From Hyphomicrobium sp. NDB2Meth4 (GTDB lineage Bacteria; Pseudomonadota; Alphaproteobacteria; Rhizobiales; Hyphomicrobiaceae): a stretch of DNA of 64,000 nucleotides. How positions within the stretch are numbered: the first letter of the stretch is position 1; each line of letters opens with the position of its first letter. The translations under genes were made by a program, and so were the position numbers. The notes beneath the pieces were generated by a model, which was not told the DNA's origin, did not search any database, and saw only the letters and a program-made list of their open reading frames with translations. Positions 17,497-61,310 of this stretch are shown here, in pieces. The DNA is taken from positions 868,001 through 932,000 of the forward strand of contig NZ_FPEJ01000013.1 of assembly GCF_900117445.1 (NCBI RefSeq). Direction: 5' to 3'.

Positions 17497-17596
17497 ATTC
17501 TCTCCATAGGTTGGCGCTTGCGTTCGTTGGCCTTGCTGTCGGCCGTTGTGGTTGGGGGCATCGCGGGAGGAAGGCGAAGCGTTGCGGGGGAACACC

Positions 17597-19044: not shown

Positions 19045-19049
19045 ATCGA

Positions 19050-20153: not shown

Positions 20154-20197
20154 GTCTCAGCACCCGCCCTGCTGCATACCCGTGATTGACTCCTGCC

Positions 20198-21073
20198 TCA
20201 TCGCCGCACGCCCGCTTTTGCGAACAGGCCCTGCGGTTTGAACCTCAGGAAGACAACGATCAGCACGAAGATCAGGAAGCGAGCGAACGTGTCGTTCGTA
20301 AAGAACGCGAACATCGATTGCAGCTCGCCCGAAGCAAAGCTCGCGATAATGGTTCCTGCCAGCGAGCCGCCGCCCACGACGACCATCAGGAACGCCTGCA
20401 CGACATAGCTGTCGCCCATCGTCGGAAGCACGATATTGAGCACGCCGAAAAGCGACCCAGCGACGCCGGCAAGCCCGGCACCAAGCGCGAACGTGAGCAT
20501 ATAGACGCGGCTCGCATTGATCCCAAACGAAGCCGCCATCTCCTTGTTCTGCATCACCGCGCGCACCTGCACGCCAAAGCGCGTCTTGTAGAACAGGACC
20601 CAGATGCCGAACACGAGCAGCGCCGTGACGGCAAGCACGATGACGCGGAAGGTCGAGATCGACACCGAGCCGATCATGAATGAGGAAGAGAAGATCTCCG
20701 GCACCGCCAGGTACTTCGGATCCGAGCCGAAGATAAGCCGCACACCCTGCACCAGCACCAGCGCAACGCCATAGGTCGCAAGCAGTGTGTCGAGCGGCCG
20801 GTTATAGAGATATTGTATCAGCCCGCGCTCGAGGATCAGTCCGACCACGGCGACGATGACGAACGATGCGGGAATGCAAAGAAGGTACGGAACGCCCACA
20901 TAGTGCTGCAGCATGTACGCGCTGTAGGCACCAAGCATGATCAACGCGCCGTGCGCCATGTTGATCACGCCCGCCGCACCGTAAATGATCGTCAACCCAA
21001 GCGCGGCGATCAGCCAGATACTCGCGATACTGAGCCCAAGTATCAGTGCGTTGAGAACCGACCCGAATTCCAT
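20198..21073 (-). CDS. ABC transporter permease, LivH/UrtB type (amide importer 1)
   Basis: 291 residues from the ATG at 21073, with AGGGGAA seven bases upstream; the longer frame to 21094 lacks such a site. About eight membrane segments are present, with the LivH motif GAAGVINMAHGALIMLGAYSAY near 40 and VVGGGGSLAGTIIASFASGELQ near 225. It sits between the binding-protein gene, from which it is separated by a strong hairpin, and the LivM-type permease gene. Confidence 0.9.
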   Translation of the reverse strand: MEFGSVLNALILGLSIASIWLIAALGLTIIYGAAGVINMAHGALIMLGAYSAYMLQHYVGVPYLLCIPASFVIVAVVGLILERGLIQYLYNRPLDTLLATYGVALVLVQGVRLIFGSDPKYLAVPEIFSSSFMIGSVSISTFRVIVLAVTALLVFGIWVLFYKTRFGVQVRAVMQNKEMAASFGINASRVYMLTFALGAGLAGVAGSLFGVLNIVLPTMGDSYVVQAFLMVVVGGGSLAGTIIASFASGELQSMFAFFTNDTFARFLIFVLIVVFLRFKPQGLFAKAGVRR

Positions 21074-21149
21074 AGCTGTTCCCCTCTCGCCCACGTCCGG
21101 CTAATGCCCCGCCCGGACGCAGCATCCCGAGTGCTGCGCTTACATCCTG

Positions 21150-21198
21150 GTGGAACGGCCGCTCCGCAGGACCGCGAAGACCGCGGAGCGGCTTCCAC
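21150..21198 (-). terminator. long hairpin immediately after the binding-protein gene
   Basis: GTGGAA (21150-21155) pairs with TTCCAC (21193-21198), and GCCGCTCCGC (21158-21167) pairs with GCGGAGCGGC (21183-21192), with a two-base bulge. It begins exactly at the end of the binding-protein gene. Such hairpins behind solute-binding protein genes commonly reduce read-through and protect the upstream mRNA, giving excess binding protein over membrane subunits. Confidence 0.6.
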
Positions 21199-22890: not shown

Positions 22891-23565
22891 ATGAAAGTCA
22901 TAATTGCCGACGACCACTGGGTGGTCAGACAGTCTCTAAAGCAAATTATGCGTAGGCTGAATCACACCCTCCACACCTACGAGGCCGAAACATTCGGCGA
23001 GCTGACGGCTTTGCTTGCCGAGCACCCCGATACGAGCCTCATCCTGCTCGATTTGGTCATGCCCGGATTTGAGGGACTGAACGGACTCCGCAGCTTGCGC
23101 GCGAGATTTCCCGACATCCCCATTGTGATCGTGTCCGTGCACGAGGACGTCGAACACGTCATTCGCTCCGTCGAGCAGGGTGTGATCGGCTACATCCCCA
23201 AATCGGCCGACGGCCTGGAAATAGAGCGCGCGCTGGAGCGCGTCTTGGCCGGCGAAGTCTCATTTCCTCGCCGCATCATCGAGCGCTCGCATGCACCCGC
23301 AAAGCCGGCCAAGGCAATCGAAGTTGCCGCGCGCGACCCTGAACGTGACATTGATGCACTGACGGAGCGTGAACGCGCCGTGCTGGAGCTTCTCGGAGGC
23401 GGCTCATCGGTAAAGAACATCGCCGAGGAGTTGGGACTGAGCAGCCAGACCGTACGCATTCACCTCGGCAATGCCATGAAAAAGCTGAATCTGCGCGACC
23501 GGACCAGTGCCGTGCACTACGCCGTCACACATTTTGGTCGCGCAACCAGTGCAGCCAATGGATGA
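22891..23565 (+). CDS. NarL/LuxR-family response regulator (amide module 1)
   Basis: 224 residues. The receiver domain (1-120) has the acidic pair DD at 7-8, phospho-acceptor D54 in LLDLVMPG and a conserved lysine in YIPKSA. A LuxR-type helix-turn-helix fills about 150-215 (LTERERAVLELLGGGSSVKNIAEELGLSSQTVRIHLGNAMKKL). It overlaps the kinase gene by eight bases. It is divergent from the importer/DMFase operon and probably controls it through the CTAG dyads between them. The paralogue at 57812-58480 keeps the same motifs. Confidence 0.9.
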   Translation: MKVIIADDHWVVRQSLKQIMRRLNHTLHTYEAETFGELTALLAEHPDTSLILLDLVMPGFEGLNGLRSLRARFPDIPIVIVSVHEDVEHVIRSVEQGVIGYIPKSADGLEIERALERVLAGEVSFPRRIIERSHAPAKPAKAIEVAARDPERDIDALTERERAVLELLGGGSSVKNIAEELGLSSQTVRIHLGNAMKKLNLRDRTSAVHYAVTHFGRATSAANG

Positions 23566-25129
23566 TTTAGTAGACCGGGACGGGGGTGCCGACCAGCAGA
23601 TGCGGGCGACGTGGAATGGCTTTGATGCCATCGACACCGGCCTTCTGATCTGGTCCCATGATCGCGTCCTCGTCTATATCAACGACGGCTTCCGCCGCAG
23701 CTGCGATATCCCAGTTAAGCTCGGCATGCACTACACGGACTACGTCGCCGCTGTCGCTCACTCCCGTGAGTGGATCATCCCCGACCCTGACGAATGGGAA
23801 CAGCGCACCGTCAACGACTTCGGCATCGCCAAAGAGTCCGACTACCAGTCCGCCATCGGCAATTTCATGCACGTCGCGCAACGCCCCTCGCGCGACGGCG
23901 GCATGGCGATCACCTTCACCGACATCACGGCCGTCAAGCACAATGAACGCCAATTGCGCGAAGCGAAGGAGACCGCCGAAGCCACTGATGAAGCCAAGTC
24001 GCGCTTCCTGCGCGCAGCCAATCACGACCTGCGACAACCGCTCGCCTCTCTCAAGATCCTCATCTACAGCTGCGCGCGCGAGGAGGATGAGGAAAAGCGT
24101 GCCGAGATGCTGCACGCCATGGGCGTTGCGACCTCAATCATGGAAGATTTGCTCGGCGCCCTTCTCCAGATCGGCCAGCTCGATGCCGGGCGCGTCCAGC
24201 CGCGCATTACATCGTTCCAGCTATCGGAACTCTTTGATCGCCTGCGCATCCAGTTTGCACACCAGGCACAGGAGAAAGGCCTGAGGCTCAAGTTCGTCAT
24301 TCCGGCGAAAACAGTTTCAACCGACCGCGCCTTGCTCGAGCGCATACTCAGCAACTTCGTTGCCAATGCGATCCGTTTCACCGAGGTCGGCGGCGTCGTA
24401 GTCGGTTGCCGCAAGGAAGGCCGCGGCCTGCGCATTGAAGTTGTCGACACCGGTCGCGGTGTAAAGGAAGAAGATCGCGTGCGTATCTTCGACGAGTTTT
24501 ATCGAGGTACCGACGACAGGCAGCCGCAGAAGAAAGGTCTTGGCCTCGGGCTCAACATCGCCAAACGTCTCGCCGACCTGCTCGAATTGCAAATCGACGT
24601 CCGTTCGGAAGTCGGCAGGGGCTCGATCTTTTCAGTCTGGGTCCCCTTCGGAAACATTTGGCACAGCGACATCAGCGCCGAGGCCAACATCACCGAGGCG
24701 GTCGCCGGCGAGTTCGCTGGTACGCCAATGCTGCTCGTCGAAGATGACGACTTCCTGCGCGAATCCATGACCCAGCTACTGCTACGCTGGGGCATAGACG
24801 TCCGCGCTGCGGCCAACGAGACCGAAGCCATCGAACTCGTCACCAATGAAGCCGTCTCACCTCGTCTCATCATCGCCGACTACAATCTGGAAAGCCGCAC
24901 CGGCCTCGACGTCATTACGGCGATCCGCGCAGCCATCGGCGCCGATACGCCTGCCATTGTTGTCACCGCCGATGCCGAACCCAAGGTCGTGGCCAGCATC
25001 CGCGCCGCCGGCATTCCAGTACTCATCAAGCCGGTTAGCCCGCCGCGCCTGCGCGTGATGATGCATAACCTCCTGTTCGAGCCCGAACTCCTGAGGCAGA
25101 CACCCGACGCGTCGCCAACCTCTCAGTGA
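23558..25129 (+). CDS. soluble hybrid sensor histidine kinase (amide module 1)
   Basis: 523 residues from the ATG at 23558, which overlaps the end of the regulator gene; a start 51 bases earlier is less likely. Order: PAS-like domain (about 15-125), a short coiled linker, HisKA with H156 in ANHDLRQPLA, an HATPase domain with N, G1 (VVDTGRGV) and G2 (KGLGLGLNIAKRL) boxes, and a C-terminal receiver with D441 in IIADYN. No transmembrane segment or signal peptide is present, so sensing must be cytosolic. The next gene encodes an AmiC-like binding protein that likewise lacks a leader and is the probable input. Confidence 0.9.
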   Translation: MDDLVDRDGGADQQMRATWNGFDAIDTGLLIWSHDRVLVYINDGFRRSCDIPVKLGMHYTDYVAAVAHSREWIIPDPDEWEQRTVNDFGIAKESDYQSAIGNFMHVAQRPSRDGGMAITFTDITAVKHNERQLREAKETAEATDEAKSRFLRAANHDLRQPLASLKILIYSCAREEDEEKRAEMLHAMGVATSIMEDLLGALLQIGQLDAGRVQPRITSFQLSELFDRLRIQFAHQAQEKGLRLKFVIPAKTVSTDRALLERILSNFVANAIRFTEVGGVVVGCRKEGRGLRIEVVDTGRGVKEEDRVRIFDEFYRGTDDRQPQKKGLGLGLNIAKRLADLLELQIDVRSEVGRGSIFSVWVPFGNIWHSDISAEANITEAVAGEFAGTPMLLVEDDDFLRESMTQLLLRWGIDVRAAANETEAIELVTNEAVSPRLIIADYNLESRTGLDVITAIRAAIGADTPAIVVTADAEPKVVASIRAAGIPVLIKPVSPPRLRVMMHNLLFEPELLRQTPDASPTSQ

Positions 25130-25160
25130 AGGCCAAATTCCAGTCAAGGACTGAGCGCAC

Positions 25161-26441
25161 GTGGACGATCACAACCAAGCGATACCGATCGGCAGCATGG
25201 TTCCCCTCACCGGACCGTCTGCCGCTGACGGCGCGGAATTCCGCAATGGCATGATCCTCGCGTGCGAGGAGTTGAACGCGCGTGGCGGCCTGCTCGGCCG
25301 CCCCATCCGGCCTATCTTCGCCGACACCTGCCGCCAGACCGCCCAGGAAGTCGTATCCGCGGCCCGCTGGCTCATCGAGAAGCATAAAGTCCACGCCATC
25401 ATCAACGGCTACAATATCGGACCGCAGAACTCCGAGTACGAGCCCATCGCCGACGCCGGCATTATCTACGTGCACGCCAACACGCTGCTGCAGCACCACG
25501 ACACGGTGATGAGCGACCCCGAGCGCTACTTCGGCTGCTTCATGGCCGACCCCGCCGAGTATTGGTACGGCCCCGGCTTCATCAAGTTCCTCTCATGGCT
25601 CCGCGATACGGGACAATGGGTACCCAACTCCGATCGCATCGCCATCATTTCCGGATCAACGCCCTACAGCATCGTGATTGCCAACGCGATGGCTAACGCC
25701 GCCGCGAGCTTCGGATGGAAAGTCTGTTTCGGTCCCAAGATCGTACAGACCCCGACCAGCCAATGGCGCGATGTCATCGAAGAGGTCCGCGCCACCAACC
25801 CGGCTGTTCTCGCCAACACGCACTTCTACGCCGGAGACCTCGCGCACTTCCAACGCCAGTTCGGCGAAGATCCGATGGATTGTCTCGTCTATCTGCAGTA
25901 CGGCGCAGTGCACCGCAGCTTCATCGACATTGCCCAGGAAGCCAGCGTCGGCGTCATCGTATCGTCGATCGTCGGTCTGCTCCGCGATGAAATGGGTAAG
26001 CGCTTCGAGGCCCGCTACCGCGATCGCTTTGGTGTTGGCTCCACAGCAACCATCGGCTGCCAGTCCTACAGCAACATGCATCACTATGCCGTCGCGGCAG
26101 CTATGGCGGGCGGATCCGGTCCGCCAGGTGACTTCGAGCAGAACCGCAAAGTTGCCTTTGCGTTGCGGGGCATGATCTACCGCACCGTCCACGGCACGAT
26201 CCGCTATCACCCCGATTGGCAGGCCGTCGTCCCCTACCCCGTCGTGACACGCGATCCCTCGCTCGGAATGCCGCACATCTTCTACCAGATCCAGGACTTC
26301 CGGGCGCCGTTGTCGATGATCGCCCCCGAGCCCTACAATACTGAGCGCTTCATACTTCCACCTTGGATGAGCAAATCACGCCTATCAGCACAGCCCGCCC
26401 AAACCGATCGTCGCGGATTGACGAATATCGAACAGCAATAG
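25161..26441 (+). CDS. cytosolic AmiC/FmdD-like amide-binding sensor protein (amide module 1)
   Basis: 426 residues from a GTG at 25161, with AAGGA upstream. It has a type I periplasmic binding fold but no signal peptide: the N-terminus goes straight into the first strand, IPIGSMVPLTGPSAADGAEFRNG. Internal markers are NGYNIGPQNSEYEPIADAGI and QHHDTVMSDPERYFGCFM. Pseudomonas AmiC is a precedent for a cytosolic binding protein that senses amides and controls a regulator. Here it directly follows the response regulator and kinase genes. I infer that ligand-bound protein modulates the soluble kinase. A paralogue with the same gene order is at 60051-61310. Confidence 0.85.
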   Translation: MDDHNQAIPIGSMVPLTGPSAADGAEFRNGMILACEELNARGGLLGRPIRPIFADTCRQTAQEVVSAARWLIEKHKVHAIINGYNIGPQNSEYEPIADAGIIYVHANTLLQHHDTVMSDPERYFGCFMADPAEYWYGPGFIKFLSWLRDTGQWVPNSDRIAIISGSTPYSIVIANAMANAAASFGWKVCFGPKIVQTPTSQWRDVIEEVRATNPAVLANTHFYAGDLAHFQRQFGEDPMDCLVYLQYGAVHRSFIDIAQEASVGVIVSSIVGLLRDEMGKRFEARYRDRFGVGSTATIGCQSYSNMHHYAVAAAMAGGSGPPGDFEQNRKVAFALRGMIYRTVHGTIRYHPDWQAVVPYPVVTRDPSLGMPHIFYQIQDFRAPLSMIAPEPYNTERFILPPWMSKSRLSAQPAQTDRRGLTNIEQQ

Positions 26442-49739: not shown

Positions 49740-52061
49740 TCAGCGCCACTGCTTTTCGTCTGCTATCCACCTGGAACCGGGCAGCGGCCCATCCTGCACG
49801 AAGGCCTCGACGACGTTGGCGAGAAGCTTGGCGGCAGTATTGTTGAACCCTTCGGCTGGTAGCGCCTGACCGAAGGCGATCGATCCGGTCGAAAACATCG
49901 CGCCGTCCTTGGCGGTTGGAAAGAAGACGATGTCGGCACGGATGCGATAGTCCTGCGTGCCGCCTAGGCCCGCGTGGGCGTACAGCACCTCCTCCGTCGA
50001 CAGCACGAAGTTGTCGGTGTGGCCGCCTGACGAGGCGATGATCTTGGCGTGCGGAGGCGTGCCGAGAGAACGGTCATAGCGGTCGAGTTCAAGGCCGGCA
50101 GCACCGCCGTGAGCCAAACCACAGTCACCGATGATCTCGCCCTCGATGCCCTTGCACATCCAGTCGACCGTTCGATGGTAGCTGTCGGGCATGCGGCGGA
50201 AAGCGCGCGAATCCTCGAAACCTTCGCCGATGAAGCCGACGCCGAAGATCTTTTGCGGCGGCCTGCCGCGGTTCTTCCACAGTCCGCTCTTGTCACCGGT
50301 GGTCTGCAGGTAGTGCTCGCCGGGGCGGGCCGCCCACGCACGCATGCCCGAATCCAGCTTGCGCACCTCCATCACCGATGGATCATCGTTGCGATAGGCG
50401 ACGTTCCAATAGAAGCCGTTGCCGCCCATGTAGATGAAGCGGCCGCCATCGGCGACATAGTCCTCGATGGCATCGAGGATCGGCTCGGATACGTATTCGG
50501 GGTGCGATCCGCTCATCACGCACTTATAGGGCGCCAGCGCTGCCAATCCTTCGATGTGAACATCCTCATCGGTGATCACGTCGTAGTCATAGCCCTGGTG
50601 CTCGAGCCAGGCGATGATCGACAGGTCCGCCGGCAGCTGCCACGTCGTCCCCATGCTCGATACCCGATACTTCGGGCGCATGTTCACGAGCGGCCGATGA
50701 TAGCCGCTGTAGCAGACGCCGGTCCCGTCCATGTAGGAATCATAGGTGGAGAACCCGAAGTCCGGATTCTTGTACATCTCCACGTCGATGTCGGCGACGA
50801 TCGGCGGCTGTCCCGTCATCGGCTGAATGATCTGCGTGTCGAAGCTCAGGTGTTCGTTTGCATAGGCTAGGTAGCTTCCGGTCGGCGCGAGAAAAGCCAA
50901 ACGCCCCTGCGGCGTGACGGGACGCACGAAGAATACGACGTATTCTTCTGCAAGTCCCACGCCGGGGCCTGCGCGCAAGCGAATGGCATAAACCCCGCTC
51001 TTGAGATCCTTGGGAATGGTGAACGAGCGCGTGACTTCCCAGTTGCAGTCGATCATCGCATCGGCGTGGAACTCGACACCACCGTATTCATGTGGCGCGA
51101 GGCGGAAGCAGTCGTTTCGTCCCGACCAATTGTAGCCTGTCATCGCGCGAACGGGGCGATTGTAGCCATGTGCGTCGAGCCGGTAGGGGCCGACGTCTAC
51201 GACGGTATCGCCGATGCCGTTCTCGGTGTAGCCGACGGTCGTGTCCCAGTAAGCCAGAAGGCCGTCGGGCGGGGGCGGACCGCCGTCCCTGATCCTGTCG
51301 AGTTCATCGCGCGTCAAAGCGCGGCCTGACATGCCCGGCCGATCGATCTTGCCGCAGAAGCACTCCGAGATGAAGTATCCGCGCAGCTCGTGCCAATCCT
51401 GCGAGCCTGCCATGATGAATGGGGTTTCCGCGCCGTTCTTCGCGCGAAAGCGGAGCGTCTCGGCAACGTGGGAGCGATAGTCGAGCGGCGCCGCCTTGCC
51501 CAACAGAGAGTTGTAGCGGTTCATCACCGGCTCCTGGTAGAGCTCGGCACGCCCGGTTTCGGCGTTGAAGCTGACAGCCACGAAATACCAGATGCGCGGC
51601 TGCAGCGGCACTTCGGCTGCAACGTAGTCGACTTCCTTGCCGTCACCCAGCCAGAATTCCAGAAGCCCGCTGCGATTGATGCCGAGGCAATAGCCTTCGT
51701 TCCGGTAGCTGTCCCAGCGCCCGATCAGAGACTGCCTGACGCCGAAACTGGGAAGTGTCGCCCAGACGTAACCGAAGATCGTGAAGCTTCCATCGTGGGC
51801 AAGACGCTTTGCAGGATCGGCCACGCGCAAGAACGAGCCCACTTGAGTGAACTGCTTCTTGACGTCCCACTCCCCGTTGACCTCGCACGCAACCTCTTTC
51901 TCGATGAAGCCCGGCCCGCTTGGGTGCTGGTCGCCATGGATGATCTTCACGAGCTGCGCGGATGCGCGATCGGTTCCGTCCGCGTGAACATGAATGTCGA
52001 TCTTCTGACCGGGTTTGATAGTGATCTTATCGGCGTAGCCGAAGAGTTTGATCTGCGCCAT
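49740..52061 (-). CDS. dmfA2: N,N-dimethylformamidase large (beta) subunit, copy 2
   Basis: 773 residues, close to the ~762 of characterised DMFases. It has the same layout as copy 1: an IKLFGYADKITIKPG start, a lectin-like domain with SLIGRWDSYRNEGYCLGINR, and a C-terminal catalytic domain. The expected iron ligands fall at Y400 (AYANEH), Y440 (STYDSYMDGTG) and E522 (GSHPE), almost the numbering I recall for the Paracoccus enzyme (399, 440, 521). Copies 1 and 2 are clearly diverged throughout. No separate small-subunit gene accompanies it: the upstream gene, ending 30 bases before this start, carries that domain fused to a permease. Confidence 0.88.
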   Translation of the reverse strand: MAQIKLFGYADKITIKPGQKIDIHVHADGTDRASAQLVKIIHGDQHPSGPGFIEKEVACEVNGEWDVKKQFTQVGSFLRVADPAKRLAHDGSFTIFGYVWATLPSFGVRQSLIGRWDSYRNEGYCLGINRSGLLEFWLGDGKEVDYVAAEVPLQPRIWYFVAVSFNAETGRAELYQEPVMNRYNSLLGKAAPLDYRSHVAETLRFRAKNGAETPFIMAGSQDWHELRGYFISECFCGKIDRPGMSGRALTRDELDRIRDGGPPPPDGLLAYWDTTVGYTENGIGDTVVDVGPYRLDAHGYNRPVRAMTGYNWSGRNDCFRLAPHEYGGVEFHADAMIDCNWEVTRSFTIPKDLKSGVYAIRLRAGPGVGLAEEYVVFFVRPVTPQGRLAFLAPTGSYLAYANEHLSFDTQIIQPMTGQPPIVADIDVEMYKNPDFGFSTYDSYMDGTGVCYSGYHRPLVNMRPKYRVSSMGTTWQLPADLSIIAWLEHQGYDYDVITDEDVHIEGLAALAPYKCVMSGSHPEYVSEPILDAIEDYVADGGRFIYMGGNGFYWNVAYRNDDPSVMEVRKLDSGMRAWAARPGEHYLQTTGDKSGLWKNRGRPPQKIFGVGFIGEGFEDSRAFRRMPDSYHRTVDWMCKGIEGEIIGDCGLAHGGAAGLELDRYDRSLGTPPHAKIIASSGGHTDNFVLSTEEVLYAHAGLGGTQDYRIRADIVFFPTAKDGAMFSTGSIAFGQALPAEGFNNTAAKLLANVVEAFVQDGPLPGSRWIADEKQWR

Positions 52062-52091: not shown

Positions 52092-53729
52092 TCACGATTC
52101 CAGAAGGTCCTGAACGCGGCGCATGAAGACGCCGTGATAGGCATCGTGGATGCTCGTGTAGACCTTCTCTTCGACCACGCGCGGGGCGACGCCACGGTGG
52201 CCGGACAATGCGACGATGCGGTACGACTTGAACGGCTCAATGACGGTGATCGCGTACTTGTCGACTTGCGGCTGTCTGCGGAAATAGATCAGCAGACGCT
52301 CCAACGCTTCGCTGTGCTGTCCGAGCGGACTTCTGCGATGCTCTTCGATGACCTCGTCTGTCACGAGCGTCTTCAGGTAGTCGCGCGTCAGCTTGTCGAA
52401 GCGGCGCAGATAGAGTTCGTCCTTGTCTTCGGTTTCGGTGGCTTCTTCGGGCAGCATCTCTCCGCCTTTCTCCGCTCGTGCTGATCTGTGCTCGCTCTTC
52501 TTCTTGTCGCGCCAGGTACGGAACTGTTCCTTGATGCCGAAGAGACCTCGGCGCAGGAACAGCACGACGAAGAGCATGATGAGGCCGATGATGACGAGGC
52601 GCAGGGCCCCGAGGTCGATGAGAACCTTGTCGAAGAAGACGACGATCAAGGTTCCGAGCACGGCACCTTCGGCGCGCCCCAATCCGCCGATGACGAGCAT
52701 CGCCAAGCCAAGCAGCACCGTGTCGAACGAGAACAGCGATGGCGAGGCGCCGCGGAAGTAGGATGCGTAGTAGCCGCCGATGGCACCCAGCGCGATCGAG
52801 GTGATGATGAACACGTGGATGCGCGCCTTGCGGTAATCGACGCCAGCCGCCTCCGCGAAGGCCTCGCGCTTTTCCGGCGCCATGCGCAGGATACGGCCCA
52901 GCCTGCGCCCGTTCACCAAGCGGAACAGCAGCAGCGCGGCCAGCAGAACGACGAAGCTGCCATAGTAGCCGATGATCAGCTGCGTCGACTGCGAGGCCGA
53001 CTGTGGGATGAAGCTGTCTGCGCCGTAGAGGCCTCCGGTAGCAGACCCGAACGTCTTCGATTGGATGACGTAGACACGGCACAGTTCATTGAGACCGAGC
53101 GTCAGCAGCGCGTAATAGAAGCCGTCGAGGCGTATTGCCGGCAAGGCGATGATCACGCCCATGACGAGGCCAAGCGCCGCGCCCGAGAGCGGCATCGTCC
53201 ACCATGGCCAGCCCCAGAAGACTGACGTGCCCGCCGCGGCGTATGCGGCCGCACCGACCACAGCCATCGTTGCCAGCGAAAAGATGCCCGCCGTGCCGAT
53301 GACAAGTGTCCAGCAAAGGTTGATCGCCGAATAGATGAGGAAGATCGTCGCCGCGCCGAGTAGCGTGTTGGCGACTTCGCCCGGCGTCAGCATCGGCAGC
53401 ACAGCCAATGCCATCAACGCCATCATCCACCAGATCGGACGCTTATCGACGATCGTCTTCTCGACCCGCTGAGTCTTCGGGTTGTACTCAGAACGAATGT
53501 CGAGCACGCGCCGACGCGTCGGCCAGTAGCGAAGCCGCGACCAGAGCTTTGCGCCGTGCCCACCCCACTTGTGATAGTAGCGCAGGCGTCCGACTTTATA
53601 GAGCTTGGCGTGCGAGGTGCGCTTCTTGCGCCATATCTCTGTCGGGTCGGTCCAATCCGGGGTCGGTGCTTCAGGGTTGGCTTTGGCCGCATGCCAGACT
53701 TGGTGCGGATTCTTCCAGATCGTTGTCAT
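52092..53729 (-). CDS. LivM-type ABC permease fused to a DMFase small-subunit domain
   Basis: 545 residues in one uninterrupted frame. Residues 1-100 are a long, basic, tryptophan-rich cytosolic extension. Residues ~103-390 are a LivM/UrtC permease with about ten helices (NLCWTLVIGTAGIFSLATMA, VIGGLGRAEGAVLGTLI). A charged linker (~395-430) leads to a domain matching the DMFase small subunit: YFRRQP, YRI (503-505), LSGHRGVAP (508-516), KVYT (522-525), H532-x2-F535-x2-R538. A gapless hand alignment with the free small subunit at 17056-17496 gives 18 identities in 39 positions. It starts overlapping the LivH gene (ATGA) and ends just before DMFase copy 2. An internal ATG at 52457 with GGCGGAG upstream could also make a free 121-residue subunit. 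Confidence 0.88.
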   Translation of the reverse strand: MTTIWKNPHQVWHAAKANPEAPTPDWTDPTEIWRKKRTSHAKLYKVGRLRYYHKWGGHGAKLWSRLRYWPTRRRVLDIRSEYNPKTQRVEKTIVDKRPIWWMMALMALAVLPMLTPGEVANTLLGAATIFLIYSAINLCWTLVIGTAGIFSLATMAVVGAAAYAAAGTSVFWGWPWWTMPLSGAALGLVMGVIIALPAIRLDGFYYALLTLGLNELCRVYVIQSKTFGSATGGLYGADSFIPQSASQSTQLIIGYYGSFVVLLAALLLFRLVNGRRLGRILRMAPEKREAFAEAAGVDYRKARIHVFIITSIALGAIGGYYASYFRGASPSLFSFDTVLLGLAMLVIGGLGRAEGAVLGTLIVVFFDKVLIDLGALRLVIIGLIMLFVVLFLRRGLFGIKEQFRTWRDKKKSEHRSARAEKGGEMLPEEATETEDKDELYLRRFDKLTRDYLKTLVTDEVIEEHRRSPLGQHSEALERLLIYFRRQPQVDKYAITVIEPFKSYRIVALSGHRGVAPRVVEEKVYTSIHDAYHGVFMRRVQDLLES

Positions 53730-54637
53730 GCTTCGCGGGCCCTATCCAGGATGCCCGCGATGCCGCGCGGCCGTACGAGAATGATCGCGATGATCAGCAG
53801 GAACTGTGTGATGAGGACGTATTGCCCGCCGAGAAACGACGCCGTGAGCGCCTCGTTGAAGCCGAGGATCACCGCGGCGATCACCGCGCCCTGTACGCTG
53901 CCAAGCCCGCCACAGAGAGCCACGCTAAGCCCTTTGATGAGCGGCGTCAGGCCCGCGAACGGACTGACGAAGTAAGTCTGCGACAGGAGAACGGAGGCGA
54001 GACCTGCAAGGCCACCGGTGAGCGCCATCACATAGAACCCGGTGCGCCGTACACCGATGCCGACTAGAGATGCTGCATGCGGGTTCATCATCATGGCCCG
54101 GATTTCGAGCCCGCGCCGGCTATGGGTCATCCAACGCAAAGTCAGCGTCAGCAGAACGATCGACGCCATGATCGATCCGCCCTTATCCGCCGTAATGACG
54201 ATGTCGCCGAATGAAACCTTCCAATCACCGAACAACGTGGGAAGCGGCTTCGCGCGCGGCCCGAACATATAGAGCAGCACCTGAGTGCCGATCAGACTGA
54301 TGGCCAGCGTTGCAATAAGACCGCGGACGGTGAACTCGGGCTTGTCGTGGATCGGGATAAACGCGAGCGCGCAGACCATCACACCCACGAGCGCCCCCGT
54401 GACGATGCCTGCCGCAATGACGATGGCGCCTAGCAGCAGCGGGTAATCGGCAACAAGCGGAAGGTCCTGCGCCAGGCGCCCCACGTACCAGGCACCGAAG
54501 CCCGCCGCCGAGAAGGTGAAGCCGTACGCCATGTTGACGAGCCCAAGGCTCGACCACGTGATCGAGATGCCGATCGCCAGCGTCCCGTATATGCACGCCA
54601 ATGTGATGGCCGTTATGAAGATGAAGCCGAAATCCAT
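53726..54637 (-). CDS. ABC transporter permease, LivH type (amide importer 2)
   Basis: 303 residues, about eight membrane segments. LivH landmarks are SSLGLVNMAYGFTFSAAGFGAWY near 30-50 and LSVALCGGLGSVQGAVIAAVILG near 240. The stop overlaps the start of the fused permease gene by four bases, so the two membrane subunits are translationally coupled. It is less like the LivH of importer 1 than expected for a recent duplication. Confidence 0.88.
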   Translation of the reverse strand: MDFGFIFITAITLACIYGTLAIGISITWSSLGLVNMAYGFTFSAAGFGAWYVGRLAQDLPLVADYPLLLGAIVIAAGIVTGALVGVMVCALAFIPIHDKPEFTVRGLIATLAISLIGTQVLLYMFGPRAKPLPTLFGDWKVSFGDIVITADKGGSIMASIVLLTLTLRWMTHSRRGLEIRAMMMNPHAASLVGIGVRRTGFYVMALTGGLAGLASVLLSQTYFVSPFAGLTPLIKGLSVALCGGLGSVQGAVIAAVILGFNEALTASFLGGQYVLITQFLLIIAIILVRPRGIAGILDRAREA

Positions 54638-54640
54638 AAT

Positions 54641-55387
54641 TTATGCCTCGCGCCTGTTGTGCTGGGCGAGGGAGGCTGAGGCCTCGCCTTTGAGTTTTCC
54701 GACGTGCATTCCGATGATCCTGTCGACTCGCCCTTCCAGCAGGGCGACGTTCTGCTCGGCGATCACCATCGCGGAGCTGCCCAGCTCGATTGCGAACAGC
54801 GCCTCCATGACGCTCTTGCCGATTTTGGGCGCGAGCCCCAGTGATGGCTCATCGACCAGAAACAGCGATGCGTCCGCCATCAGCCCGCGTCCGAGCGACA
54901 CCATGCGCCGCTCGCCGCCAGACAATCGTCCGACAGGCGTCTGCATCAGCTTGCGCAGTGGCGGAAACACCTGCAGCACACCTTCCTTGCGGGTGGCCCG
55001 TTCGCGCCATGCCTTGGGCGTGAAAGCACCACTGTCGAGATGTTCCTCGACGGTGAGGCCGTGAAAGATCTCATCGCCTTGGGGCATGAGGGCCAACCCG
55101 CGCCGCACCACCTTGTGCGTATGCCGCCCGGGCCCTTGGCTGCGTGTGCCGCCGACCTCGTGGCCGCTCAGCTTGATCGAGCCGCGTTGCCAGCCGGTCA
55201 GGCCGGCAATTGCCAGGAACAGCGTCGATTTGCCGTGGCCGTTGAGACCGACAATCCCGACGCGCTCACCGGGATGAATGATGAGATCCAGATCGTGAAT
55301 GACACGCATCGGGCCATAACCGGCCGATAGGCCATTCACGCTCAGGATCGGCTCGCCGCGCGCCACCTGCTCCTGCGAAACCGTCAT
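54641..55387 (-). CDS. ABC transporter ATP-binding protein, LivF type (amide importer 2)
   Basis: 248 residues. Walker A is GLNGHGKST near 46, the signature is LSGGERRM and Walker B is LFLVDEPSLGL, with a glutamine-type switch region VIAEQN, so it is a complete ATPase. It overlaps the LivG-type gene by four bases and is followed by the LivH gene at three bases. As its LivG partner has a degenerate signature, this subunit supplies the only consensus signature motif of the pair. Confidence 0.9.
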   Translation of the reverse strand: MTVSQEQVARGEPILSVNGLSAGYGPMRVIHDLDLIIHPGERVGIVGLNGHGKSTLFLAIAGLTGWQRGSIKLSGHEVGGTRSQGPGRHTHKVVRRGLALMPQGDEIFHGLTVEEHLDSGAFTPKAWRERATRKEGVLQVFPPLRKLMQTPVGRLSGGERRMVSLGRGLMADASLFLVDEPSLGLAPKIGKSVMEALFAIELGSSAMVIAEQNVALLEGRVDRIIGMHVGKLKGEASASLAQHNRREA

Positions 55388-56121
55388 GCCGCGTGCTCCT
55401 CTGAATGATTATCGAAGTAAGCGGCATGCACGCGCGGATCGTTGAGGATGTCGCTGAGGCCGCCTTCTGCGATCTGCTCGCCGGCATCCATGACCATCAC
55501 GCGGTCGGCGATCGTATCGAGTAGCTCGATGCGATGTTCGACGATGATGATCGCGATGTTCATCTCCTTGGAGACGAGACGGATGAGATGGTCGATCTCA
55601 TCGATCTCCGAGTTGATGAGACCCGCGGCGGGTTCATCGAGCAGCAGTAGTGTGGGCCGTCGCATCAACAGAACAGACAGAAGCAGCTTGCGGCGGTTCA
55701 TCGTTTCGAGACGGCTTGCAGGCATGTCCTCGTCGACACGCAAATCGACGAGTTCCATGCCCCATTCCGCATCGTGCCGTGTGAGCATCGGCCGGAAGGC
55801 CTGGCGCGAGGCCTTGAGGACCTCTCCGACAGTCAGGTCTTCCGGGACGACTGGCGTCTGATAGGTCCGCCCGATCCCGAGCCGAGCCCGCTCAAACAGG
55901 CGCAGGTTGGTGATATCCTGCCCCTTGAACGTCACGCGGCCACTCTTGGGCCGATGGCGACCGGAAAGCACCTCGAACAGACTGGTCTTCCCGGCGCCGT
56001 TTGGGCCGATGACGCCGAGCACCTGGCCGGGCTCAATGGACAGCGAGATCCCCTTGAGGATCTCGCGGCCGCCCAGATCCAGCCGAATGTCTTCGGCCGT
56101 AAAAAGCGGAACGTTTGCCAT
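55384..56121 (-). CDS. ABC transporter ATP-binding protein, LivG type, with degenerate signature (amide importer 2)
   Basis: 245 residues from the ATG at 56121; a GTG two codons earlier is possible. Walker A GPNGAGKTS and Walker B LLLLDEPAAGL are intact and the switch histidine is in VEHR. Where LivG proteins have LSxGQ/E, this one reads LETMNRRKL, so the signature is lost. In a heterodimer with the LivF partner one of the two composite ATP sites would then be non-consensus. It follows the binding-protein gene by nine bases and overlaps livF by four. Confidence 0.88.
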   Translation of the reverse strand: MANVPLFTAEDIRLDLGGREILKGISLSIEPGQVLGVIGPNGAGKTSLFEVLSGRHRPKSGRVTFKGQDITNLRLFERARLGIGRTYQTPVVPEDLTVGEVLKASRQAFRPMLTRHDAEWGMELVDLRVDEDMPASRLETMNRRKLLLSVLLMRRPTLLLLDEPAAGLINSEIDEIDHLIRLVSKEMNIAIIIVEHRIELLDTIADRVMVMDAGEQIAEGGLSDILNDPRVHAAYFDNHSEEHAA

Positions 56122-56130
56122 CACCACGCC

Positions 56131-57414
56131 TCACATCCACGGCGCGGCGCGCAACGTTTCCTGCTTCAGAGTTTCGGGGAAGATGATCTTGTGCTCCCCG
56201 TCCTGGACCTGGAAATAAAGATGGGCCATGCCCTTCTCGATATCCTGCGTTCCGACCGGGTAGTGCACCGCTTCCTGACGCGGGTTGTTCATGTAGGACC
56301 AGCCAGCGACGCCGCGGAACGGCGTTACACGGAGATAGTCGCACACGCCCTTGAAGTTCATCGGATCACCGACATGCTCCCACGCCTGTTTCATCATGTA
56401 GGCGATGTCGTAACCCGATGCGGTGTGCGCGAGACCAACCGGCGTCCCGGGGAAGCGCTTGGTGTAGGCGTTGCGGAACTTCATGCCCTTCTCATCGGCA
56501 TAGACGCCGAGGACGGTGCCCCACACGAAGCCTTCAGCTGATTTACCGGCAAGCTCGAGGAACTCGGGCTGCGAGGGACCGTACTGCAGGTAGACCAGCG
56601 CACCTTTGAGCGGATTGGCCTGGAACTGCTTGACGAAGGAAGCGTACTCGGACGCCACCCAGTGGTCGACCATGACAGTGCCTGCACCGACCTTGCGGAT
56701 CTGCTCGATCACGGGCGCCCAGTCCTGCACGGGGTACTGGATGTCCGTCACTGCAGCCAGCTCGAACTCACTGTTCTTGAGAGCCTCCTGCGCCGCTTTC
56801 GAGATAGTCTGGCAGTAGGCCACCTGCTCCTGAATGATGTGGACCTTGTTGTTGAGCGGCTTCCACGCACCGCTGTCCTTCATCTGCTTGAGGAAGATTG
56901 GGAATGCCTGGCCGTAAAAGACTTCGGAGGGATCCATCTGGAAGATGTGGCTGTACTTCTCCGGATTGGCTGCAACCTGATCCGTAGCCGCGCGCTGCGT
57001 GTTGGCGCTGACGTATGGGCACTTGTAGGCGACGGACGCATCCATGGCCGGGATCGGCACGAACAGGAACGCCTGCGAAATGGCGTGAACCTTCATATCG
57101 ACAAGTCGGCGGATCGACGCCTGACAGCTCTCGGCCGAGAGCAGGTCGACGTCAACGTGCTTCAACTCGAGCGGACGGCCGAGAATTCCGCCGGCGGCGT
57201 TGATCTCTTCCTGGGCAAGGATGGTCGCGTTTAGATGGTCCTGGTGATCCTGGACGCCCGCGGCGGCCGTTTCCGAGATCGGCAAGCCGAGGACAATGGG
57301 CTCACCAGATGGTGCAGCACTGGCACCACGAGACATGCTGAGGATGGCCGGCGCCACAGACAACGTGCCGATACCCTTGATGACGTTGCGACGATGCATG
57401 GGTCGCTTAAGCAT
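56131..57414 (-). CDS. periplasmic amide/urea-type solute-binding protein (amide importer 2)
   Basis: 427 residues, ATG at 57414 with GGAGGGGAAG upstream. A twin-arginine-like leader, HRRNVIKGIGTLSVAPAIL, ends near GASAA. The type I binding fold has VLGLPISETAAAGVQDHQD, EEINAAGGILGRPLELK, and a C-terminal AYMMKQAWEHVGDPMNFKG. It is closer in style to the AmiC-like sensors in this window (shared INAQGGILGRP-type motif and VYLQYGP stretch) than to the binding protein of importer 1. It heads the operon of amide module 2. Confidence 0.87.
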   Translation of the reverse strand: MLKRPMHRRNVIKGIGTLSVAPAILSMSRGASAAPSGEPIVLGLPISETAAAGVQDHQDHLNATILAQEEINAAGGILGRPLELKHVDVDLLSAESCQASIRRLVDMKVHAISQAFLFVPIPAMDASVAYKCPYVSANTQRAATDQVAANPEKYSHIFQMDPSEVFYGQAFPIFLKQMKDSGAWKPLNNKVHIIQEQVAYCQTISKAAQEALKNSEFELAAVTDIQYPVQDWAPVIEQIRKVGAGTVMVDHWVASEYASFVKQFQANPLKGALVYLQYGPSQPEFLELAGKSAEGFVWGTVLGVYADEKGMKFRNAYTKRFPGTPVGLAHTASGYDIAYMMKQAWEHVGDPMNFKGVCDYLRVTPFRGVAGWSYMNNPRQEAVHYPVGTQDIEKGMAHLYFQVQDGEHKIIFPETLKQETLRAAPWM

Positions 57415-57811
57415 TCTTCCCCTCCGACGGCAGATGCACTAGACTGATCGACTAGTCGTATCGTTTATCTCAGTGCAAATAGCCAGAGTCAACACAAAGA
57501 AATGCTTAGTTTTTATGCTTATCGTGCACATTGCATGCGCATCACGCGGGGGCGCCAAACCATTCAGGCTCGATACATTCAGGCCTTGTCATTCACGCCA
57601 CAACGCCACATAAGCATATCGTCTACAATCACAGCGTTTGGTGGGACCGTCCTCAACCAGAGTGCTCCCCTCGACCAGGGTACTCCGGCCTACAGCAGGA
57701 ACTCGGGATATGACGATCGCCTCAGAGGTAACGCTGGCAGCAACATCCTCGGCTGCACGTTCCTTCACACGCAGCCATATCGATGATGCCCAGGACCGCG
57801 CAAAACGGCGC
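57415..57811. promoter_or_regulatory. divergent control region of amide module 2
   Basis: About 400 bases, AT-richer than the flanks, between the importer/DMFase operon and the regulator genes. CTAGAC (57439-57444) and the perfect palindrome CGACTAGTCG (57449-57458) lie 25-45 bases upstream of the binding-protein gene and recall the CTAG dyads of module 1. ATGCTTA occurs at 57502 and 57515, and its inverse TAAGCAT at 57611. The response regulator encoded at 57812 is the obvious candidate binder. Confidence 0.5.
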
Positions 57812-58480
57812 ATGAAAGTCCTGATCGCCGATGATCACTGGTTCGTACGCGACGCGCTGAAGACGCTGATGCGGCGCATGCAGAAGTCGCTCGACCCGCT
57901 GGAGGCCGTGTCGTTCGAGGATGCGGTCGCCATCCTGGATGCCAACCCAGACATCGAGCTGATGCTGATCGATCTCGTCATGCCCGGTTTTGCCGAATTT
58001 GCCGGCCTGCGCATGTTGAGGCAGCGCTACCCGCAGATCCCGATCGTCGTGGTCTCCGTGCACGAGGAGCGCGGCCACGTGATCAAGGCCATCGAACAGG
58101 GCGTGATCGGATACATTCCCAAAACCGCGCCGCCAGAGGAGATGCTGCAGGCGCTCTCGCTGGCTCTCGCTGGTCAGGTGAGCTATCCGCGCCGCATTCT
58201 CGAGAGTTCGATAAGCGCGCCCGAGCCACACGCATTCAATACGTCGGACACGCCCTCCGCAGATGACCCAGCCGCCGAACCCAGGGGCGAGCAGCCTCTG
58301 ACGGCGCGCGAACAGGAAGTTCTCGCCCTGCTCGGAGAAGGCGCCTCGGTGCAGCGCATTGCTGAATCTCTGAAGCTCAGCAGGAACACCGTGCGCGTGC
58401 ACGTTTCAAACATCATGCGAAAGCTTCAGCTCAGCGATCGCTCTCAGGTGATCCATTACGCGGTAAGCCGCAAACGCTAG
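57812..58480 (+). CDS. NarL/LuxR-family response regulator (amide module 2)
   Basis: 222 residues from the ATG at 57812 (MKVLIADDHW); the frame is open for 58 more codons upstream, but those do not resemble a receiver domain. The receiver has acidic D7-D8, phospho-acceptor D54 in LIDLVMPGF and a conserved lysine in YIPKTA. A LuxR helix-turn-helix lies near 165-215 (LTAREQEVLALLGEGASVQRIAESLKLSRNTVRVHVSNIMRKL). It is a paralogue of the module 1 regulator, with the same gene order and divergent orientation. Confidence 0.9.
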   Translation: MKVLIADDHWFVRDALKTLMRRMQKSLDPLEAVSFEDAVAILDANPDIELMLIDLVMPGFAEFAGLRMLRQRYPQIPIVVVSVHEERGHVIKAIEQGVIGYIPKTAPPEEMLQALSLALAGQVSYPRRILESSISAPEPHAFNTSDTPSADDPAAEPRGEQPLTAREQEVLALLGEGASVQRIAESLKLSRNTVRVHVSNIMRKLQLSDRSQVIHYAVSRKR

Positions 58481-58485
58481 CGAAT

Positions 58486-60054
58486 GTGAAATTGGGCGTA
58501 GAACGATCGTCGTCTGAAGTGCCACTGCGCAGGGTTTGGGACTCCCTGCAGAGAGTTGGCTTCGGTCTTTGCATCTTCGATGACGCGCTACGGCTCATCG
58601 CCGTCAACGACCCGTTTTGCGACCTGTTCGGCGCTGCGGGCGAGCGGCTTCAATACGGCACGTCTCTTTCCCAGTTTGTGCGAGAACTCATCGCGCAAAA
58701 AGTCGTCCGCCAGGACGACGAGGAGACGTGGATCGCCGAATGCACCGATGCCCTGCGATCGGGAACCACCTTGCAGCTCAAGCTCAGCGATGGACGCATC
58801 TGCAAGCTCGTTACGACACTGGGGCATGAAAGCGGCCTGACGCTCGTTGCCGAAGACGTCACGCGGACGCGGTATAGTGAAGAGACCCTGCGCGAAGCCA
58901 AAGAATTCGCGGAGAAGGCCAATATCATGAAGTCGCGCTTCCTGCGCGCCGCCAACCATGACCTGCGGCAGCCGCTCGCGACGATGAAGATCCTCGTCTA
59001 CAACTGCATGTCGGTCGAGGACCCCGAGGCGCGCTCGCAAGCGCTGCGCTCGATGGATTTGACCGTCTCGGTCATGGAGGAGTTGCTGGGCGCGCTGCTC
59101 AACGTCGGACAGCTCGATGCGGGAGCCATCGTTCCGCGCGTTGCTTCGTTCCCCGTCGCGACACTCTTCAAGCGTCTGGGCGTGCAGTTCATCCATCAGG
59201 CGGAAGACAAAGGCCTCAACCTCACAATCGTGCCGACCAGCTGCCACATCGCAACCGATCAACTGCTGCTCGAGCGGATCCTGGCGAACTTCCTTTCGAA
59301 CGCGATCCGCTACACCGACTACGGGCGCATCCTCCTCGGCTGCCGCCGCATCGACAACAAGTTACGGATCGAGGTTTATGACACTGGACGCGGAATCGCG
59401 CCTGAGCATCATGAGCGCATTTTCGACGAGTTCTTTCGTATCAACACAGGCGGCAGCCACTCGGAACGCACGGCGCTAGGGCTTGGACTCAACGTCGCAA
59501 AGCGCCTCAGCCAGTTGCTGGAAACTCCGATATCCCTGCGCAGCGCACCTGGGCGCGGATCAGTGTTTTCCATCACCGTCCCAATCGGTGACATCTGGCG
59601 CAGCGAAGTCGGACAGAACGACATCACGGAAGCGCTTACCGGAGAGTTCGTCGGCGTCGAGGCGCTGATTGTCGAGGATGACTCGGTGCTGCGCGATGCG
59701 CTGTCTACGCTGCTTGATCGCTGGGGCATCATCGTTCACGCCGCGGGCAATTATGATCAGGCCCTTCAAATGGCCGCGGAGAAGCGGCCCGATCTCGTCA
59801 TTTCCGATTTCCAGTTGCCCGGCGGATCAAACGGGCTCGACGTCTGCCGCTCGGTCCAAACGGCTCTGGGCGAAGAGATCCCGTGCATCATCGTCACCGC
59901 CGACACCGATGAGCGCCGGCTCGCGGAAATCAGCGCTGCGGGTCTCCCTCTTCTTATCAAGCCCATCGCGCCCGCGCGGCTGCGAGTCCTCATGCACCAC
60001 GTGCTGTTCGAGGAGAACGATACATCGTCAGACTTTCAATCGGAGGCGGGATGA
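58486..60054 (+). CDS. soluble hybrid sensor histidine kinase (amide module 2)
   Basis: 522 residues from a GTG at 58486, five bases after the regulator stop. A PAS-like N-terminus (about 15-115) precedes HisKA with H158 in ANHDLRQPLA. ATPase boxes are DTGRGI and TALGLGLNVAKRL, and a C-terminal receiver has D441 in VISDFQLP. There are no membrane segments. Its stop overlaps the start of the binding-protein sensor gene (ATGA), which suggests that kinase and sensor are made in equal amounts and act together. Confidence 0.9.
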   Translation: MKLGVERSSSEVPLRRVWDSLQRVGFGLCIFDDALRLIAVNDPFCDLFGAAGERLQYGTSLSQFVRELIAQKVVRQDDEETWIAECTDALRSGTTLQLKLSDGRICKLVTTLGHESGLTLVAEDVTRTRYSEETLREAKEFAEKANIMKSRFLRAANHDLRQPLATMKILVYNCMSVEDPEARSQALRSMDLTVSVMEELLGALLNVGQLDAGAIVPRVASFPVATLFKRLGVQFIHQAEDKGLNLTIVPTSCHIATDQLLLERILANFLSNAIRYTDYGRILLGCRRIDNKLRIEVYDTGRGIAPEHHERIFDEFFRINTGGSHSERTALGLGLNVAKRLSQLLETPISLRSAPGRGSVFSITVPIGDIWRSEVGQNDITEALTGEFVGVEALIVEDDSVLRDALSTLLDRWGIIVHAAGNYDQALQMAAEKRPDLVISDFQLPGGSNGLDVCRSVQTALGEEIPCIIVTADTDERRLAEISAAGLPLLIKPIAPARLRVLMHHVLFEENDTSSDFQSEAG

Positions 60055-61310
60055 GCATGACGAGCGACACATCACCGATTCCGATCGGGAGCATCGTACC
60101 CCTCAGCGGCCCATCAACGGCGGATGGCATAGAATTTCGAAACGGCATCATCCTCGCCGCGGAAGAGATCAACGCGCAGGGCGGCATCCTTGGGCGCCCG
60201 GTCAAGCCCATCTTCATCGATAGCAACCGGCAGTCCGCCGACATGATACTCGGCGCCACGCGGCGGCTGCTGCATGAATTCGGCTGCCATGCGATCATCT
60301 GCGGCTACAATATCGGTCCGCAGAACTCCGAATACGAGGCGATCGCGGATGCCGGCGTCATCTACATCCACACCAATACGCTGGTGCAGCACCACGACAC
60401 GGTGCTGAGCAACCGCGACCGGTATTTCGGCTGTTTTATGAGCGATCCGCCGGAATACTGGTACGGGCAGGGCTTCGTGAAGTTCATCACTTGGCTCAAG
60501 GACACCGGGCAATGGACGCCTCGCAACAACCGCATGGCCATTGTATCGGGCTCAAAGCCGTACAGCATCGTCATCGCCAATGCGATGGCGAGCGCGGCGC
60601 GAGAATTCGGCTGGGTTGTCTCATACGGCCCGAAAATCGTGAGCACGCCGACGACCGAGTGGTCCTCGACAATCGAGCAAATACGGGCTGCTGATCCGGC
60701 GGTGATCGCCAACACACATTTCTACGTCGGCGACCTTGCATCATTTCAGCGCCAGTTTGTCGAACGGCCGGTGGATGCACTGGTCTATCTGCAGTACGGC
60801 GCGATGCACGAGGCGTTCAGCGCGACAGCAGGACCAGCGGCCGAAGGCATTATCGTCGGCACCGTCATTGGGCTCATCCCCGACGCTTTGGGCAATGCAT
60901 TCGCCAAACGCTATTATGAGCGCTTCGGAGAAGATTCAACGCCCAACGTCGGCTGCCAGACCTACAGCGAATTGCACCACTATGCGCTTGCTGCGGCGGC
61001 TGCCGGCGGCACAGCGGGGCCGGGCGGGTTCGAACAGAACCGCAAGGTTGCCGAACGGCTGCGTTCGATCGTGTTCCGCAGCGTGGCCGGGGCCATCTGC
61101 TATCATCCCGTCTGGCAGTCGGCGATCCCGTTCCCTAACCAGACGAACGATCCATCTTTGGGCATGCCGCACCTGTTCTTTCAGCTCCAGAACAAATCGC
61201 GCCAGCGCGTCCTGATCGCCCCCGACCCCTATCGCGTGGGCCGCTTCAAGTTGCCACCTTGGTTCAGCGCAGAGCTCAAGCAGTCTTCGGCCAAGGCTGA
61301 GGAGCCGTAG
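60051..61310 (+). CDS. cytosolic AmiC/FmdD-like amide-binding sensor protein (amide module 2)
   Basis: 419 residues, ATG at 60051 overlapping the kinase stop. It has a type I binding fold with no signal peptide (IPIGSIVPLSGPSTADGIEFRNG at the N-terminus). It shares long stretches with the module 1 sensor, for example CGYNIGPQNSEYEAIADAGV, LVQHHDTVLSNRDRYFGCFM and SLGMPHLFFQLQ. The absence of a leader in both copies, plus translational coupling to a soluble kinase here, argues for an intracellular amide sensor rather than a transporter subunit. Confidence 0.86.
   Translation: MSMTSDTSPIPIGSIVPLSGPSTADGIEFRNGIILAAEEINAQGGILGRPVKPIFIDSNRQSADMILGATRRLLHEFGCHAIICGYNIGPQNSEYEAIADAGVIYIHTNTLVQHHDTVLSNRDRYFGCFMSDPPEYWYGQGFVKFITWLKDTGQWTPRNNRMAIVSGSKPYSIVIANAMASAAREFGWVVSYGPKIVSTPTTEWSSTIEQIRAADPAVIANTHFYVGDLASFQRQFVERPVDALVYLQYGAMHEAFSATAGPAAEGIIVGTVIGLIPDALGNAFAKRYYERFGEDSTPNVGCQTYSELHHYALAAAAAGGTAGPGGFEQNRKVAERLRSIVFRSVAGAICYHPVWQSAIPFPNQTNDPSLGMPHLFFQLQNKSRQRVLIAPDPYRVGRFKLPPWFSAELKQSSAKAEEP

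Follow-up and report, generated by a model that had tools for sequence, protein, structure and literature searches.

A LivM-type importer permease fused to a DMFase small-subunit domain, with a probable internal start for a free small subunit

The DNA analysed here (hereafter the window) is a stretch of 64,000 nucleotides from Hyphomicrobium sp. NDB2Meth4 (assembly GCF_900117445.1, contig NZ_FPEJ01000013.1, positions 868,001 to 932,000), and all coordinates refer to it. A single gene on its minus strand joins a permease of the LivM type to a domain that resembles the small subunit of DMFase. The gene and its parts are the following:

52092..53729, minus strand: fusion gene, 545 aa, LivM-type permease with a C-terminal DMFase small-subunit domain (Pfam, phmmer, Foldseek)
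53442..53729, minus strand: basic N-terminal extension, residues 1-96 (block pLDDT 30-63, partly conserved)
52500..53441, minus strand: permease part, residues 97-410, read as ten spans in the model
52434..52496, minus strand: linker, residues 412-432, with the near-invariant motif EKGGExLPEEATE (from the alignment)
52458..52469, minus strand: predicted internal ribosome-binding site, codons 421-424 (AAA GGC GGA GAG)
52455..52457, minus strand: predicted internal start, codon 425 (ATG), of a 121-aa free small subunit
52095..52451, minus strand: DMFase small-subunit domain (P0005), residues 427-545 (sequence and fold)

An earlier note on this DNA had described both parts in one uninterrupted frame without stating the strand; its coordinates were right and the description was borne out, the frame running for 545 codons to a TGA codon. 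No stop lies between the two parts, and the same fusion was found in 70 public loci. The permease was recognized by Pfam BPD_transp_2 over residues 124-389 (E 2.1e-26; 93.1 bits against a cut-off of 26.8). Its NCBIfam scores stayed below the cut-offs of the LivM subfamily (72.7 of 366 bits) and of the UrtC equivalog (46.1 of 296.2 bits) and hence it is referred to here as a BPD_transp_2 permease of LivM type; the names LivM and UrtC are not applied to it. The tail had no match to any Pfam or NCBIfam model at E up to 1, and the annotation of the fusion as a plain permease may be due to this. When the tail (residues 427-545) was compared by phmmer with the PDB sequences, the small subunit of the Paracoccus DMFase (6lvb_B) was retrieved with an E value of 5.9e-9, the alignment spanning residues 18-116 of 119 of the tail and 26-127 of 132 of the target, and the second and last match had an E value of 1.6. 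The window also encodes a free small subunit (17056-17496, minus strand), to which the tail was aligned by BLASTP with 25 identities in 71 positions and no gaps; the 18 identities in the last 39 residues, previously counted by hand, were seen again by eye on this alignment. This free subunit is more distant than the tail from the solved DMFase small subunit (E 0.69, not significant).

The fold of the tail was in agreement with the sequence match. An AlphaFold2 model of the fusion, built on 57 alignment rows, had a mean pLDDT of 73.2, with block values of 69-87 from residue 431 onwards, and its helices were read as ten spans. When the whole model was searched against the PDB with Foldseek, the top match was 6lvb_B (E 5.5e-5, TM 0.78 by target); the best matches (6lvb_B, 6lvv_B and 6lvd_B) were all DMFase small subunits and ranked above the permeases HmuUV and PsaBC. 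Importers of this fold with ten spans typically have both ends in the cytoplasm. In the loops assigned from the model, lysine and arginine numbered 40 in 164 residues inside and 2 in 44 residues outside, with both termini inside; a cytoplasmic location of the tail is thus supported both by charge and by the number of spans modelled. The tail and the large subunit were also modelled as one chain by reading through the stop codon. This predicted model (mean pLDDT 77.1, pTM 0.75) was obtained from a flawed alignment, in which the first ~78 residues of the large-subunit rows were laid on the tail, and pLDDT was below 50 in the first 21 residues of the tail. It matched 6lvb_A with TM 0.92 by target and 6lvb_B with 0.75, which bears on the fold of both halves and not on their docking. 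The N-terminal extension (53442-53729) has no Pfam match and might perhaps provide a second contact to the enzyme or to the ATPases.

The fusion gene belongs to an operon with the genes of a LivHMGF-type importer and of a DMFase large subunit, and a set of regulatory genes is transcribed divergently:

49740..52061, minus strand: DMFase large subunit, copy 2, 773 aa, with the iron ligands Y400, Y440 and E522 present
53726..54637, minus strand: LivH-type permease of the same operon, overlapping the start of the fusion gene by 4 bases
54641..55387, minus strand: ATPase, best NCBIfam matches UrtE/LivF, below the cut-offs
55384..56127, minus strand: ATPase, best NCBIfam matches UrtD/LivG, below the cut-offs
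56131..57414, minus strand: periplasmic binding protein, with a twin-arginine-like leader by eye
57638..58480, plus strand: divergent LuxR-type response regulator
58486..60054, plus strand: hybrid histidine kinase with PAS_7
60051..61310, plus strand: binding-protein-fold sensor, with no visible signal peptide by eye

Large copy 2 matched the DMFase large subunit 6lvb_A with an E value of 8.6e-175, and the binding protein of the operon had no NCBIfam match at E up to 1e-5. In the whole genome of the strain only two places resembled the tail at E up to 1, namely the fusion itself and the small subunit of large copy 1; hence, no separate small-subunit gene for large copy 2 was found. The claim that large copy 2 has no other small-subunit gene thus stands as regards genes, but the fusion gene has a conserved internal start from which a free subunit could be made. 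The copy-1 small subunit could in principle also serve large copy 2. No FmdA/AmdA formamidase was found in the genome of the strain, a family that was detected in 4 of 14 control genomes.

A second amide unit lies at 14519-22506 of the window and comprises a UrtABCDE-like importer, the free small subunit and a large subunit. Its importer reaches the NCBIfam cut-offs of UrtB and UrtC, not that of UrtA, and its large subunit has D at the position of N547. Each amide unit is accompanied by a hybrid kinase, a response regulator and a sensor with the binding-protein fold (22891-26441 and 57638-61310). No signal peptide was visible by eye in either sensor, and the sensors share 62% identity, against 20-26% for the permeases of the two importers.

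The distribution of the fusion was analysed in genome contigs with two patterns taken from a six-fusion alignment. Both patterns lie within the permease, so that the tail was not selected for. The scan yielded 73 loci and the tail was present in 70 of them, that is, in every locus reaching far enough (L076 with a partial tail), the contigs of L086, L089 and L092 ending before it. An unfused permease of this subfamily was not found among the 70 loci that reach the tail. A large subunit follows the fusion, at times beyond a free small one, in all 66 loci with sequence downstream. According to their architecture, the 70 loci were grouped into 39 of type A (fusion, large), 16 of type B (fusion, free small, large) and 11 of type C (fusion, large, free small, large), with 4 at a contig edge (L036, L053, L073 and L076). 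The recurrent operon reads binding protein, two ATPases, LivH, fusion, (small), large, and the divergent regulator, kinase and binding-protein-like sensor are often found beside it. Most record titles of the 73 loci name Alphaproteobacteria, others Beta- and Gammaproteobacteria, and 11 of the 73 carry a genus name starting with Methyl-, which we take to be methylotrophs. The tail matched 44 PLSDB records; identity was 60-80% in 26, a subset made up mostly of near-identical Agrobacterium plasmids. The five annotated plasmid records examined name the fusion 'branched-chain amino acid ABC transporter permease', a sixth record being unannotated; the design is therefore easily overlooked. Recurrence in 70 genome-contig loci and in plasmid records makes a sequencing error very unlikely, and the survey of genomes confirmed that the fusion is real and not an artefact.

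In even samples and with an E threshold of 1e-5, 49 of 397 genomes of the order had a small subunit of some kind, and the fusion frame was confirmed in 16 of these; with a threshold of 1e-12, the numbers were 7 of 385 genomes of the class and 3 of 398 of the phylum (own genome included). Six of 103 genomes of the family matched, and the only fusion among them was that of the strain itself. When the permease part alone was compared with 61 genomes of the order, three matches had 60-100% identity and all three were fused; every other match in those genomes had at most 33% identity and 104 bits.

Some records called for separate attention. The fusion is also carried by L082 (titled as a Klebsiella pneumoniae MAG), which groups with a gammaproteobacterial MAG, and by L068 (titled Oceanobacillus), which lies inside an otherwise proteobacterial type B clade; these are either misbinned or contaminated records, or cases of transfer. 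An archaeal candidate in Halalkalicoccus (L010), named 'inner-membrane translocator', was rejected as a fusion, being a free small subunit of ~180 aa whose name was probably carried over from the fusion. A 483-aa open frame around a small subunit (G764/L122) was likewise rejected by eye, as a start codon precedes the small subunit and the upstream frame opposes another long frame (also by eye). Two pattern matches were obtained in viral contigs and neither was a relative.

The fused tail is under strong constraint: in all 15 close pairs chosen, its dN/dS was 0-0.09. Mean pairwise identity, taken over the 37 type A loci in which every part is present, was 0.909 for the linker, 0.748 for the tail, 0.706 for the permease and 0.697 for the large subunit, and the identities of the tail correlated with those of the large subunit at 0.77 and with those of the permease at 0.71 (Spearman; not a formal co-evolution test). 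In type B the corresponding correlations of the tail were 0.82 with the free copy, 0.75 with an ATPase and 0.73 with the large subunit. The fused tail is better conserved than the free copy both in type B (0.758 against 0.461, same 12 loci) and in type C (mean 0.798 against 0.685, 11 loci). The fast-evolving type B free small subunits, measured on 12 of 17, are those of L058-L060, L062-L064, L066-L072, L075, L077, L085 and L011. A tree of 145 small subunits was built from a small number of columns and leaves many forks open. It nests the types B and C free copies within the fused tails, with the free subunit of Caballeronia (L012) just outside; the label 'fused' needs 2 changes on this tree. 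This placement fits one fusion with later free copies, and suggests that a tail of this kind is apparently able to act as a small subunit.

In the Paracoccus DMFase, as far as the consulted part of PMC7686228 goes, the iron site is formed by Y399, Y440 and E521, H519 and N547 are called essential, the large subunit alone is inactive, and the enzyme is an alpha2beta2 assembly or its dimer. All five residues are kept in 57 of 57 complete large subunits of fusion loci with a single large gene (43 of type A, 14 of type B), and the iron ligands together with residues H519 and N547 are present in P0003. Two large genes occur in twelve loci (L028, L034, L038, L039, L044, L045, L046, L050, L057, L081, L088 and L008), and in all 12 the loss of an iron ligand or the histidine affects one copy and spares the other: the proximal copy in 8 (Y399F/L with H519R), the distal copy in 3 (Y440C) and, in L008 of Aminobacter, the distal copy by E521A. 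Large copies with such a loss would be inactive, and non-catalytic large partners seem, from these sequences, to have evolved repeatedly by three routes.

The linker also contains a predicted translation start. Codons 420-425 of the fusion gene in the window read GAG AAA GGC GGA GAG ATG. The site was compared in a set of 77 loci (the window, 6 plasmid loci and 70 of the 73 genome-contig loci), of which 73 were classed, L036, L053, L073 and L076 being left out owing to cuts at contig ends; an earlier tally of 57 type A loci was set aside, as it included short or repeated loci and L102, probably of type C. Locus L008, where two large genes are present and the stretch examined contains no free small gene, was counted as type A. 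In the 45 type A loci, which have no free gene in the contig stretch examined around the operon, a start codon is present at position 425 or 426 in every case (ATG at 425 in 44), AAA encodes Lys421 in 41 (background 0.173) and GGA encodes Gly422 or Gly423 in 37 (background 0.152). In the 17 type B loci ATG was not found, any start codon was found in 2, AAA in 2 (background 0.223) and GGA in 1 (background 0.178), whereas the 11 type C loci have ATG in 8 and neither AAA (background 0.124) nor GGA (background 0.292). Since the AAA background is higher in type B and lower in type C than in type A, and that of GGA is higher in both, composition alone does not account for the contrast. Beyond the last large gene, more than 3 kb of sequence is available in 43 of the 44 type A loci other than the window; L082 ends 2 bases past the large gene, so that a further free gene is possible there.

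The codon columns were compared in 57 rows of alignment A5 (35 type A, 20 type B or C, 2 cut). In type A, the AAA frequency of 0.94 at Lys421 ranked first among 13 conserved Lys columns (next 0.60 and 0.54; median 0.15), and GGA at Gly422 (0.51) and Gly423 (0.29) were the top two of 38 Gly columns (next 0.20), against 0.10, 0.00 and 0.05, respectively, in types B and C. The median anti-SD pairing energy was -10.0 at the type A site and -6.4 in types B and C, with reference medians of -5.1 at 88 large-subunit starts (omitting the large genes of L066, L071, L075 and L082, cut at contig ends) and -1.6 over all positions. The window's own site, at -7.1, is weaker than the group median and within the top 1.9% of its frame. 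The well-kept Met columns 283, 344 and 385 showed no contrast between the types, and Met column 1, the start of the frame, does show one (17/35 against 0/13). The start has moved by one codon in L084, and in the deeper relatives L104, L105, L106 and L121 the SD-like stretch is kept with the start codon at 426. In alignment A2, the free subunits of L012, L013, L019 and P0002 begin at most one codon from the internal start, those of L014 and L018 begin upstream of it, and that of L010 has an insert near it. The best permease tree requires two gains of the free gene, and one independent pair is left on the starred branches alone; with one or two independent events the contrast between type A and types B and C cannot reach significance once relatedness counts, and the Fisher and binomial p values on it ignore relatedness. 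The internal site is weakened in the 28 operons with a free gene, although type C keeps ATG in 8 of 11 loci and its site still pairs well above background. The EKGGE motif is kept where the start has been lost, indicating that the linker has a role in the protein as well. One gene may thus yield the small subunit in two forms, tethered and free. With a free subunit made from the conserved internal start, tethering of the enzyme could be incomplete.

Taken together, we favour as probable the following arrangement. The product would be the second of the two permease subunits in an ABC importer of LivHMGF type, with a whole DMFase small subunit added to its cytoplasmic C-terminus; this tail would dock the catalytic large subunit, whose gene comes next in the operon, and a short amide would be hydrolysed where it emerges from the importer. 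The ribosome-binding site and start codon in the linker would probably also give a free small subunit (121 aa here) in the window and in relatives without a nearby separate gene. The likeliest substrate would be formamide or N-methylated formamides, as suggested by the family of the enzyme and by hosts such as those of the Methyl- genera. The tether of enzyme to importer predicted in the earlier note is well supported, and the amide may be channelled from one to the other.

Importers of this type typically contain a single LivM beside a single LivH. With one LivM per importer there would be a single tail, against the two small subunits of an alpha2beta2 DMFase, and a free small subunit would complete the enzyme. 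A two-large, two-small enzyme on one importer would then contain one tethered and one free small subunit, the latter coming from the internal start in type A and from its own gene in types B and C. We give an even chance to the fuller proposal that one gene provides the subunit-bearing permease and the free subunit, which jointly place an asymmetric amidase of two large and two small subunits on one importer, that the internal site decays where a free gene exists, and that where two large genes exist one lacks the iron site and is non-catalytic.

Alternatively, the tail might only tether, the fusion being the sole small subunit without internal initiation, and the AAA and GGA codons might serve ribosome pausing after the last span. 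The conservation of EKGGE in all architectures and the position of the site shortly after the last membrane span are in favour of this explanation; pausing at SD-like sites is itself disputed. However, pausing needs no start codon and should be independent of a free gene, whereas a start codon lies at the right spacing in all 45 operons without a nearby free gene, is shifted by one codon in L084 and stands at codon 426 in the four deeper relatives outside the 45, and we consider this explanation unlikely. A different role for the tail would be that of a regulatory domain which senses substrate or product and gates transport, with the large subunit using another small subunit. Other ABC importers have C-terminal regulatory domains, and in types B and C it is the fused copy, present together with a free one, that is the more conserved. 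On the other hand, the 45 type A operons have no other small-subunit gene in the stretch examined, and in the tree the types B and C free copies arise within the fused tails; together with the inactivity of the large subunit alone, reported in the consulted part of PMC7686228, this leaves the regulatory role quite improbable.

It was also considered whether the internally started free subunit is the only functional one, the fused copy being a tolerated by-product of a stop lost between overlapping genes. The starts of several free relatives, which lie at most one codon from the internal start, would agree with this. However, in type B, where a free gene is present and the internal start is mostly absent, the fused tail is still highly constrained, and each of the 70 loci that reach the tail has the permease fused; a mere by-product would be lost by nonsense mutations. 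This makes such an origin very improbable, and tethering with a probable internally started free subunit is retained as the preferred reading.

If this is true, it would represent a natural ABC importer with a catabolic enzyme built on, conserved across several proteobacterial classes. Direct passing of a substrate from importer to enzyme would become testable in one protein, and the nested start would be a simple genetic handle for separating tethered from free enzyme. The earlier note knew of no enzyme-transporter fusion of this kind, and none was found described in the literature searched on DMFase and on enzyme-transporter fusions, a search with most subscription papers and all bioRxiv preprints outside its scope, including the consulted parts of PMC7686228, PMC8235418, PMC4543880, PMC11381386, PMC10781810 and PMC7078480.

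Among known systems, the Paracoccus DMFase (6LVB; DmfA1/DmfA2) resembles the fusion unit in the fold of the small subunit, the iron site of two tyrosines and one glutamate and the adjacent genes, but its small subunit is a free protein and the word 'transport' is absent from the main text of PMC7686228. The fmdCABDEF cluster of Methylophilus methylotrophus includes a formamidase of another family, and no fusion is mentioned in the part of its description that was consulted; it is set apart by that description and not by the sequences of FmdDEF. The LivHMGF and UrtABCDE importers share with the fusion unit an operon that encodes two permeases and two ATPases together with a binding protein, without the C-terminal enzyme subunit and the N-terminal extension of the fusion. 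Internally translated small subunits are represented by Cas11, inside cas8/cas10d, and by SctQ/SpaO, where a small subunit similarly arises from an internal start within the gene of a larger subunit; here the host gene is that of a membrane permease and the predicted internal product would be an enzyme subunit.
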